Shown here: piece by piece, positions 22,282-26,893 of the stretch | Layout of the letters: each line of letters opens with the position of its first letter | Numbering within the stretch: the stretch's first letter is position 1 | Assembly (NCBI GenBank): GCA_016874915.1 | Contig: VGSW01000015.1 | Span: 1-36,442, forward strand | DNA: 36,442 nt | Source: Deltaproteobacteria bacterium | GTDB taxonomy: Bacteria > Desulfobacterota > Desulfobaccia > Desulfobaccales > 0-14-0-80-60-11 | Direction of reading: 5' to 3' | Notes under the pieces: generated by a model | What the model saw: the letters and a program-made list of their open reading frames with translations, nothing else | What the model was told of the DNA's origin: nothing | Databases searched by the model: none | Program-made: the position numbers and the translations under genes

Positions 22282-22292
22282 TGGGCCTCCTT

Positions 22293-22322
22293 ATCAGGTT
22301 TCAGGTTGCAGGTTTCAGGTTA
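22293..22322 (+). repeat. Heptamer array TTTCAGG-type
   Basis: ATCAGGTTTCAGGTTGCAGGTTTCAGGTT. Confidence 0.85.
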
Positions 22323-22546: not shown

Positions 22547-22615
22547 CGGAAAGGGCAACCTATTTTGTGCTCCCATTAATAATTGGGAAGTTACTGAAAC
22601 CCAGCACCTTAATTA

Positions 22616-22659
22616 AACCTGAAACCTGACACCTAAAACCTGACACCTGACACCTGACG
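22616..22659 (-). repeat. Heptamer array ACCTGAC-type directly abutting the dinB ATG
   Basis: ACCTGAAACCTGACACCTAAAACCTGACACCTGACACCTGACG then ATG. Confidence 0.92.
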
Positions 22660-23736: not shown

Positions 23737-23795
23737 TCCACAGATTACGCAGTATATATTTAAAATAATATATAATTTTAAATAATAAAAAGCCT

Positions 23796-24239
23796 ATGCC
23801 GAAAACAGATATTTCCATTTTAGTTAAAAGCCTTCGCCGGCGTCTGGCCCTGACCCAGGAGCAGTTTGCCCGGGAAGTGGGAATCACTTTCAGCACGGTC
23901 AATCAGTGGGAAAACGGCCGCCGGCGTCCCCAGCCTTTTCTTCTAAACCGTCTGCGGGAGATGGAAGCGGCCCTGGAATCCCCCCGGGGCGGCTTAACTT
24001 CGGCTGCAGCCCGGGCCTTCCAGGACCGGTGGCAAATGGTGAATAAGGCGGAACGCCAAGAACTGCGAGCTGCCACCCTGGCCCGGAAGCTGAAGCAGCT
24101 AGCCGCGCTGCTGGCCTCCATCCCCGCCCTGAAACCTGACCACGAGGCCAGAGAAGAGGAAGAAGCCCAGGTCAGGCGGCAATGGGCCAGGCTCAGGCAG
24201 GTTTATCATGCAGGCACACACAACTCCCACACCCCTTGA
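23796..24239 (+). CDS. XRE-like HTH protein with C-terminal helical domain
   Basis: LRRRLALTQEQFAREVGITFSTVNQWENGRRRPQPFLLNRL HTH; C-terminal charged helical region; overlaps next ORF by 32 nt. Confidence 0.8.
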   Translation: MPKTDISILVKSLRRRLALTQEQFAREVGITFSTVNQWENGRRRPQPFLLNRLREMEAALESPRGGLTSAAARAFQDRWQMVNKAERQELRAATLARKLKQLAALLASIPALKPDHEAREEEEAQVRRQWARLRQVYHAGTHNSHTP

Positions 24240-24804
24240 AGCCATCCTTCAAGACCTGGCGGGCTGGCTTGAATCCCGCCGGGTCCCGTGGGTCCTGGTG
24301 GGCGGCATTGCCGCCTCTTTTCTGGGCAGGCCCCGGTTTACCCGGGACTTGGATGTCCTGGTGCTGCTGCCAGAGAGAGATTGGGAGGGTTTTGGGGATT
24401 CAGGAGCGACCTATGGTTTTCTTCCCCGGCTATCCGACGCCCTGGCCTTTGCCCGTAAAACCAGGGTTCTCCTAATGCGGCATCAGCCCACGGACTTCGA
24501 CCTGGACCTTATTTTCGGGTCCCTGCCCTTCGAACAAGAAACGGTGGCCCGGGCTAAATGGAAAACCATGGGAAAAGCCAGGGTGCCATTGCCCACTCCC
24601 GAGGACCTGATAATATTGAAAGCAGTGGCCCGGCGCCCTCAGGATCTGATGGATATTGAAGGGATTCTGGACGCCCACCCGAAGCTTAACCGCCGCCGGA
24701 TAAGGCAGTGGCTGGAAGAATTCGCCGCGGCCCTGGAACAGCCGGAACTCTTAAAAAATTGGGAAACCCTGCTCTCCCGGCGAAGGCTGAAGCCAAAGAA
24801 ATAG
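24208..24804 (+). CDS. Nucleotidyltransferase-fold protein (AbiEii/DUF6036-like)
   Basis: WVLVGGIAASFLGRPRFTRDLDVLVLLP (GG-xxAS ... RxTxDLDVLV); TPEDLIILKAVARRPQDLMDIEGIL. Confidence 0.8.
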   Translation: MQAHTTPTPLEAILQDLAGWLESRRVPWVLVGGIAASFLGRPRFTRDLDVLVLLPERDWEGFGDSGATYGFLPRLSDALAFARKTRVLLMRHQPTDFDLDLIFGSLPFEQETVARAKWKTMGKARVPLPTPEDLIILKAVARRPQDLMDIEGILDAHPKLNRRRIRQWLEEFAAALEQPELLKNWETLLSRRRLKPKK

Positions 24805-24985: not shown

Positions 24986-26488
24986 ATGACACAGGTGAAT
25001 ATCGGGTTCGTGGGCACCGACGGCCGCAGCTTCCTGGCCGCGCTGGAGACCAGCCGGGCTACCAGCGAGCTCTATCCCGGCGATTATCAAGGCTTCGTGG
25101 TCCGGGGCACCCCGGCCATGCCGACCTTCGCCCAAAAGATGGGCTGGCCCGTGGGTTTTCTTCCGGTGGCGGAAAATACCACCGGGGCCTTCGCCGCAGC
25201 TCTCATCGCGGCTTTTCAGAAAGAGGAACTGGACCTGGCCCTGATTATGCCGGAGCAGCTTATTTTCAACGGCCTGGTGGACCGTCTGAACGCCGCCGGC
25301 TTCGGCGATAAGGTCATCGGCCTGGATGAGAAGGCCGCGTTCATCGAAGGGGACAAAATCGCCTGCAAGCGTCTGTGCCGGGAGGCCGGCATCCCCATGG
25401 CCCCGGAGTGGACCGAAGTGGACGCCAAAGACTACCACTCCGTCCAGGGGGTCTGCCTGAATTATCTTCACGACTTCGGCGGCGCGGTGCTGAAATACCC
25501 TTACAGCGCCGGAGGCAAAGGCGCCCGGATCATTCTCAACACCTGGAAAATCCGGGACGTTTACGAGCTGTTGATAAACGACTATAAGGACGATTACGCC
25601 CGGTTATACGGCAAAAAAGGCCCCTGGCCCCTGCTTATCGAAGCCCGTATGTCCGGAGTGGAAATCAGCTTCACCATCTTCGTGGATCAAAACGGCCATT
25701 ACCAGATTCTGCCCACGGCCATGGACTACCCCGAGCGGTTTGAAGGGCCCCCGGGGATTGATAACCCCATCACCGGCGGCATGGGCTCCATCTCCCCCCA
25801 TCCCCTGGAGTCTCCGGAACTCCTGGCCCTGGCGGAGGAGACCATCGCCCGGCCCCTGATTGCCAAGATGAAGGAACGGGGTCTGCTGCGTCCCTGCGTC
25901 TTGTACCCCGGCTGCTTCGTGTCCTTTGACCGCGCCTTTAGACCCAGGGCCATCCGGGTCTGTGAAATCAACATCCGCCCTGGGGAACCGGAGTTTCAGC
26001 CGGTGGTCAAGCGCCTGCGCAACCTGGGGGCGCTCATCCAGGCCATGGCCCGGGGCAATCTGAATCAGGTATCCCCGGAAGTGCGGACTGACCAGATTTC
26101 CCTGTGCGTTGCCCTGGTCACCGGCCCCGGCGGCCCCAAGCAGCAGAAGGGCTACCCCTGGTCCCTCACCAAGGGGGAGCCGCTGCAAATGGACTTCGAC
26201 TACTTCGACAAAAAGAAGATCACCGTGGTGCCTTCAGCCATGGATTGCTCGGAAGAAGGCGGGTTCAAGTCCGACGGCTCCCGGGTGGCGTTCCTGGTGG
26301 CCAACGCCACGGTGAAGGAGGGCCACAAAAGGGGCCAAGTGGTGGAAACCCTGCGGGCCCGGATGCTCAGCGCCTTTGACAATGGGAAAATCCGGGTCAT
26401 TCCCCGGGAGAATCCTGGAGGCAACCGCCTGGCCCTGCGCCGGGACATCGGGCTGCACTACCAGAAAGCGGAGCTGCTGGGGGGGTAA
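24986..26488 (+). CDS. PurD-like (phosphoribosylamine-glycine ligase-like) ATP-grasp protein
   Basis: ATP-grasp features: GGAVLKYPYSAGGKGARIILN, LIEARMSGVEISFTIFVD, NPITGGMGSISPHP, EINIRPGEPEFQPV. Confidence 0.8.
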   Translation: MTQVNIGFVGTDGRSFLAALETSRATSELYPGDYQGFVVRGTPAMPTFAQKMGWPVGFLPVAENTTGAFAAALIAAFQKEELDLALIMPEQLIFNGLVDRLNAAGFGDKVIGLDEKAAFIEGDKIACKRLCREAGIPMAPEWTEVDAKDYHSVQGVCLNYLHDFGGAVLKYPYSAGGKGARIILNTWKIRDVYELLINDYKDDYARLYGKKGPWPLLIEARMSGVEISFTIFVDQNGHYQILPTAMDYPERFEGPPGIDNPITGGMGSISPHPLESPELLALAEETIARPLIAKMKERGLLRPCVLYPGCFVSFDRAFRPRAIRVCEINIRPGEPEFQPVVKRLRNLGALIQAMARGNLNQVSPEVRTDQISLCVALVTGPGGPKQQKGYPWSLTKGEPLQMDFDYFDKKKITVVPSAMDCSEEGGFKSDGSRVAFLVANATVKEGHKRGQVVETLRARMLSAFDNGKIRVIPRENPGGNRLALRRDIGLHYQKAELLGG

Positions 26489-26528
26489 CCGCAGGCAGGT
26501 GCGGGGGCAAGGGCGCAGGGGGACAGCA

Positions 26529-26674
26529 CCGTTTTCGGTTTTCGGTTAAATAAGCGAATTATCAATTACTTATATGTCAACCTAAGTGCATTTGAAAGCA
26601 GCCCCGGTATCACCTCTCCCCCAAATCGGGATTAATACCGTTTTCGGTTTTCGGTTTTCAGTTTTCGGTTAAAA
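26529..26674 (+). repeat. Two TTTTCGG heptamer arrays (26529-26551, 26638-26674)
   Basis: CGTTTTCGGTTTTCGGTTAAATAAG; CGTTTTCGGTTTTCGGTTTTCAGTTTTCGGTTAAAAG. Confidence 0.88.
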
Positions 26675-26724
26675 GAAATTGTATTATCAATAAGTTAGCC
26701 AAAGAATTTGTTGCATCTGAAACT

Positions 26725-26845
26725 GAACTTGTTATATTACTCGGAGCGGAAAATGGATTACGTTCACCCCCACCCCGCCCTCCCCCCTTAAGGGGGAGGG
26801 GGCAAAAGGAAGGAACTTCTTTAATGCTCCGAGTAATATAAGTTC
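26725..26845. repeat. MITE-like nested inverted repeat (~121 bp)
   Basis: Outer arms GAACTTGTTATATTACTCGGAGC / GCTCCGAGTAATATAAGTTC; inner CCCTCCCCCCTTAAGGGGGAGGG. Confidence 0.75.
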
Positions 26846-26893
26846 TCCGGTCCCCGGTCCCCGGTCTCCGGTCCCCGGTCTCCGGTCTCCGTC
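26844..26893 (+). repeat. Heptamer array CTCCGGT/CCCCGGT
   Basis: TCTCCGGTCCCCGGTCCCCGGTCTCCGGTCCCCGGTCTCCGGTCTCCG. Confidence 0.92.

Follow-up and report, generated by a model that had tools for sequence, protein, structure and literature searches.

Do two overlapping genes, one encoding a helix-turn-helix (HTH) protein of the XRE type and the other a nucleotidyltransferase (NTase), constitute a toxin-antitoxin (TA) system, and if so does the antitoxin also control its own operon? Toxins of the MenT type are found widely, and the antitoxins that silence them come from several unrelated families. The MenAT1 pair of Mycobacterium tuberculosis is not autoregulated, which raises the question of how such pairs stay balanced. 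The genes considered here lie in a stretch of 36,442 nucleotides from a Deltaproteobacteria bacterium (contig VGSW01000015.1), hereafter the window. Their features are listed in Table 1. We put at roughly three in four the probability that they form a MenAT1-like, autoregulated toxin-antitoxin operon in which the antitoxin domain is joined to an XRE HTH.

Table 1. Features of the gene pair and of the region upstream, numbered from the first nucleotide of the window.
Feature	Position	Strand	Remarks
Putative operator ATATTTAAAATAATATATAATTTTAAATA	23756..23784	.	AT-rich near-palindrome; first base 40 bp upstream of the antitoxin start codon
Candidate antitoxin, ORF1	23796..24239	+	147 aa; XRE HTH joined to an antitoxin-like helical domain
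HTH_3 domain, PF01381	23823..23954	+	ORF1 residues 10-53; E 2.5e-11
C-terminal antitoxin-like domain	23994..24215	+	ORF1 residues 67-140 (approximate); alignment A1; free-standing relatives
Candidate toxin, ORF2	24208..24804	+	198 aa; MenT1-like NTase; AbiEii, PF08843
NTase motif GG...PRFTRDLD	24301..24354	+	T45 (=MenT1 T39), D47 (=D41), D49 (=D43)
NTase motif K138...D149	24619..24654	+	K138 (=MenT1 K137), R143, D146, D149 (=D152); alignment with 8an4

A recurrent and constrained gene pair

The HTH-fused bicistron is present at nine loci (the window, L005, L006, L010, L011, L012, L013, L015 and L028), with this form seen in two families and three copies in the window's own genome. Values of dN/dS are 0.15-0.25 for both genes, and 0.15-0.23 for the antitoxin candidate; both are under purifying selection. 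With nine HTH-fused loci and this degree of constraint the pairing is not due to chance, and the module of two genes is real, recurring and constrained.

The two ORFs lie where the original prediction placed them and overlap by the 32 nt it gave (24208-24239), although this length is peculiar to the window copy. In the relatives ORF1 ends in ...YHA* and overlaps the NTase ORF by 8 nt, and the position of the NTase start codon is common to the window and all relatives. The YHA* stop has been lost from the window ORF1, which gains seven codons, and the longer overlap is therefore a local peculiarity.

Other features of the window were noted in passing. Downstream of the pair, at positions 24986-26488, is a gene for a PurD/GARS-like ATP-grasp protein, which scores 159.8 bits against a purD cut-off of 288 and is found at 71-88% identity in 19 of 22 genomes of the family (one match being partial); the gene is conserved and differs from canonical purD. 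Short CAGGTTT/AAACCTG repeats, inverted, at 22284-22321 and 22615-22655 flank a gap upstream of dinB. A cluster of short repeats (ACCGTTTTCGGTTTTCGGTT; TCTCCGGTCCCCGG) occupies 26528-26885 and includes a perfect 16-nt inverted repeat, TTATATTACTCGGAGC, with arms 78 nt apart.

The nucleotidyltransferase

The enzyme had been described as an NTase of AbiEii/DUF6036 type. The AbiEii part of this assignment holds, with a score of 34.3 bits against the curated Pfam cut-off of 22.5 for PF08843; the DUF6036 part does not for the window member, which falls below the cut-off, although ten of ten aligned relatives match that family at E<=0.01. The Pfam cut-off for DUF2204 is also exceeded. A phmmer search against PDB sequences gave a sole significant match, MenT1 of M. 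tuberculosis (8an4, E 5e-10), and searches of the PDB with NTase profiles reached MenT1 at E 1.7e-13 and 4.6e-20. The AlphaFold2 model (pLDDT 94.4) gives the same result, since its top five PDB matches are all MenT1 chains with TM values of 0.69-0.81, the best at E 5.3e-12 with TM 0.76/0.81. Much weaker fold matches follow, to a Paracoccidioides NTase-like protein, ANT(2''), LnuA and MenT3. By both sequence and fold, MenT1 is the closest solved relative.

The catalytic residues of MenT1 are Thr39 (T/S39), Asp41, Lys137 and Asp152 (numbering from PMC10435456 and PMC11375011), and toxicity requires Asp41, Lys137 and Asp152 (PMC10435456). Alignment with 8an4 indicates that all four positions are retained in the window enzyme as T45, D47, K138 and D149, an outcome in favour of the original prediction, which had proposed a check of the catalytic residues; the motif that it quoted, GGIAASFLGRPRFTRDLDVLV, is also present. 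Across 36 NTases T45, D49, K138, R143, D146 and D149 are invariant, T45 occupying the position of the MenT1 phosphorylation acceptor T39, and D47 is conserved in at least 90%. At one locus (L012:846-1472:+) the first catalytic aspartate is replaced by glycine (D47G, RLTRGVD), and that NTase may be inactive; its antitoxin and operator are intact. No PADLOC model matches the NTase, and a scan of a collection of genome contigs with a single-protein query found only two distant NTases. By homology, at about 25% identity to MenT1, the enzyme would be a toxin that extends the 3' ends of tRNA.

The HTH protein and its C-terminal domain

The XRE-like HTH attributed to ORF1 is confirmed by the match to HTH_3 (Table 1). 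It resembles the Y4mF/HipB and MqsA models, at scores below their cut-offs, and no AbiEi family of Pfam matches the HTH protein. In the predicted structure the HTH helices have a mean pLDDT of about 89-97, and confidence in the protein as a whole is moderate (pTM 0.43). The C-terminal domain is predicted to be all-helical, with helices at residues 69-92, 95-112 and 116-141. When the model of the entire antitoxin candidate was used to search for similar folds, only HTH proteins were retrieved.

Alignment A1 of the C-terminal domain carries the conserved pattern A.aF..RW..vN..E..EL....K...LaaL.......V..rW..L. None of 11 members matches a Pfam family, and the A1 profile, searched against PDB chains at E<=10, found neither MenA1 nor any other solved antitoxin, and no other PDB chain matched. 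That this part of ORF1 resembles small proteins encoded just before NTases had been suggested, with the proposal that a search be made with it alone. Such a search, using the C-terminal 80 residues against 297 genomes of the phylum, identified three loci beyond the window's own genome (L018, L019 and L020), in three other families, and at each the domain is a free-standing ORF of 82-84 aa that overlaps the NTase start. Two more copies came from searching 395 genomes with a profile: L028, which is HTH-fused and lies in another family, and L029, which stands alone with no adjoining NTase. No copy of the domain turned up when L008 was used to extend the search to a second phylum (289 genomes), so that support for its presence is confined to its own phylum. 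Plasmid and phage records held no NTase relatives, cyanobacterial plasmids gave matches to the HTH part only, and viral contigs gave no matches.

A neighbourhood in which the domain precedes the NTase does recur, as expected from the original prediction. The close NTase group, defined by a profile score above 320 bits and including copies from the family search, comprises 11 intact enzymes. All 11 have the C-terminal domain directly upstream, nine fused to an HTH and two without. In the NTase tree these members group together (95/96); the HTH fusion may have been gained once and then lost, or gained twice, and the tree is compatible with either history.

The next group of NTases, at 100-140 bits, mostly has a small upstream ORF that overlaps the start of the NTase or directly adjoins it. 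Of the small partners examined, 18 of 25 form one alignable family, A6, of 65-80 aa, which lacks an HTH and matches nothing in Pfam. A small protein ahead of the NTase is therefore usual, and fusion to an HTH is exceptional. Profile-profile comparison of A6 with the C-terminal domain showed no relation (probability 1.3). The A6 family (L045-L068; consensus ...LGVLPPKDPLEGIEVDIRxAKVLN) is encoded ahead of the more distant NTases across many of the phylum's families. Matches of A6 to PPR proteins in the PDB were dismissed as repeat noise, no stretch passing by itself.

Some copies or remnants of the bicistron adjoin other TA-like genes (L005, L006, L028 and L016). An MNT-type NTase lies beside the C53 copy, an XRE HTH gene beside the C130 copy, a HEPN gene beside L028, and PhdYefM-PIN adjoins the remnant L016.

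A putative operator

A 29-bp element, consensus ATATTTCGAATAATATATTATTTTAAATA, with a near-palindrome of 26-28 bp, is found upstream of eight of the nine HTH-fused genes, where it begins 40-50 bp ahead of the start codon. In the consensus 12 of 14 position pairs are complementary, or 24 positions out of 28. The window element agrees with it at 26 of 29 positions and has 14-nt arms with a single mismatch. Pairwise identity within the element is 69-97%, and 76-90% between the window site and the others, as against 19-35% over the preceding 80 bp for pairs that include the window copy; over that stretch the two closest copies reach 62%.

A search of the 3.73-Mb genome that allowed up to two mismatches located exactly three sites, all before bicistrons, and the reversed control gave none. 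The search pattern was derived from the bicistron sites themselves, so the informative part of this result is the absence of the pattern elsewhere. Among 26 other genomes the element is confined to G019, G021 and G324, always ahead of a bicistron, and it was not found in the four genomes that have only stand-alone copies. The one HTH-fused copy that lacks it, L010, carries GVTCSAVKHWEND in the recognition region as opposed to the usual GVTFSTVNQWENG. The degree of symmetry was reached by 117 of 10,000 shuffles and is by itself of modest significance, hence the case for an operator rests on conservation and specificity. Promoter-like hexamers overlap the element (23737-23766 and 23759-23786), the AT-rich centre of which also resembles a -10 element. 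The association with HTH-fused copies points to the palindrome being the operator of the HTH antitoxin, and specific to it. As far as sequence comparison can go, this lends weight to the idea of an autoregulating, HTH-fused antitoxin with which the study began.

Loss of the nucleotidyltransferase

In G020, a congeneric species, the corresponding site, flanked by dinB and the purD-like gene (L070, G020:C117, 720-1310), retains the HTH gene but has lost the NTase entirely. The retained gene has a 2-nt insertion that shifts the frame within the HTH, which could be an assembly error, and its operator is nearly identical. The NTase is truncated at L018 and missing at L029, with the domain protein retained at both. 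In addition L016, a partnerless fragment comprising the C-terminal third of an NTase, is a remnant. In the sample examined, loss affects the NTase more readily than the partner protein, which would be expected were the NTase the toxin.

Alternative explanations

Several other readings of the pair should be considered. It is not unusual for an HTH gene to stand ahead of a resistance enzyme, and the fold matches that follow MenT1 include ANT(2'')-Ia and LnuA (E about 1e-4), so that the locus might comprise a regulator and an NTase that modifies small molecules, inactivating an antibiotic as those enzymes do, with no TA system involved. We regard this as very unlikely. MenT1 is a far better match in fold (E 5e-12) and in sequence (E 5e-10), the enzyme has been lost from G020 while the HTH gene stays, and a mere regulator would not explain why its C-terminal domain occurs free-standing, without an HTH, in other families. 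The roles might instead be reversed, as in HEPN-MNT systems, with the helical protein toxic and the NTase an antitoxin that acts by modifying it. MNT proteins are NTases, MntA AMPylates HepT (PMC7641770), and the C-terminal domain is all-helical. This domain, however, has no HEPN match in Pfam (0 of 11 members), its C-terminal histidine is not conserved in A1, and the NTase groups with MenT1 and not with the MNT family. Moreover, loss or truncation of the NTase in G020, L018 and L029 with the helical protein kept would leave a toxin unguarded, and we judge the reversal highly improbable.

If the NTase is the toxin, how is it restrained? PMC3985639 places AbiE among the type IV systems, and the HTH with its operator would permit control by repression alone, such that the antitoxin might act only on the operon, or by some other indirect route, and make no contact with the NTase. 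Yet stand-alone copies that have neither HTH nor operator still precede an NTase, which means that the C-terminal domain must act without DNA binding, and MenA1, which also lacks an HTH, binds MenT1 directly (PMC10435456). A purely indirect route is accordingly rated as decidedly unlikely. With respect to the AT-rich element, a strong promoter inherited by descent would account for the overlapping promoter-like hexamers and for the several copies in which TTGACA lies about 16 nt upstream of TAATAT. It would not account so readily for conservation over 26-29 bp with dyad symmetry, far beyond a -10 element, where the flanking DNA is no more alike than background, nor for the missing element at the stand-alone copies and at L010, where the recognition helix is changed. 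We consider that a promoter function by itself is unlikely.

Proposed mechanism and significance

The gene pair most likely encodes a MenT1-like, growth-stopping enzyme and its antidote, and because the fused DNA-binding domain adjoins a matching palindromic site the antidote is likely to turn the pair off as well. In proposing a TA operon we infer that the NTase is toxic and acts on tRNA, and that the HTH protein both neutralises it directly and represses the operon. By homology to MenT1, the NTase would add nucleotides onto the 3' ends of tRNA and so stop translation. The HTH protein would be an antitoxin with two jobs, neutraliser and repressor. Its C-terminal helical domain would bind and silence the NTase, the likeliest routes being a block of the active site, promoted phosphorylation of T45, or both. 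The N-terminal XRE HTH would bind the palindrome at about -40 and thereby repress the operon.

With regard to origin, we lean slightly towards the capture of a stand-alone, MenA-type neutralising domain by an XRE repressor, which would have converted a TA system without feedback into one that is autoregulated, the domain belonging to a family outside Pfam that is unrelated in sequence to MenA1 and AbiEi. If so, it would represent a further independent way of silencing MenT toxins, by virtue of that lack of relationship, and the fused and free forms would allow the neutralising and regulatory functions to be separated experimentally. A neutralising domain that occurs with and without an HTH, and with a DNA site only where fused, provides a natural experiment on the gain of transcriptional feedback. 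Two antitoxin-like families without Pfam models, the C-terminal domain and A6, could help to annotate many orphan NTases. No description of an HTH-domain fusion of this type was found in the open-access literature searched.

Comparison with known systems

The closest parallel is MenAT1 (Rv0078B-Rv0078A), in which a small antitoxin gene is also directly upstream of an NTase of about 190-200 aa, with the toxin fold and the four catalytic residues in common. MenA1 is, like the stand-alone relatives described here, a short helical protein encoded right before the NTase. It differs in that it has 68 residues and no DNA-binding domain, and MenAT1 is not autoregulating (PMC10435456, PMC11375011), whereas the antitoxin candidate in the window carries an XRE HTH and its gene is preceded by a palindromic site, and no sequence similarity between its antitoxin domain and MenA1 was detected.

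XRE-type antitoxins of type II systems (HipB, HigA, MqsA) likewise use an XRE/HTH_3 domain to bind DNA; the partner here is a MenT1-like NTase and the C-terminal domain is different. Pairs of an XRE HTH and a MenT1-like NTase were not seen among the XRE pairs listed in the passages of PMC2701414 consulted.

AbiE, MenAT3 and MenAT4 (AbiEi/COG5340 with AbiEii/DUF1814) share with the present pair a toxin from one NTase superfamily (PF08843) and a two-domain antitoxin with the DNA-binding part at the N-terminus, and AbiEi autoregulates through inverted repeats (PMC7319586). The differences are that AbiEi combines a winged HTH with a COG5340 C-terminal domain, as opposed to an XRE HTH with an unrelated, short helical domain, and that the NTase matches the fold of MenT3 far less well than that of MenT1. 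The system is most likely one with an AbiE-like layout and a MenT1-like toxin, in which both the HTH and the antitoxin domain are of a different kind.
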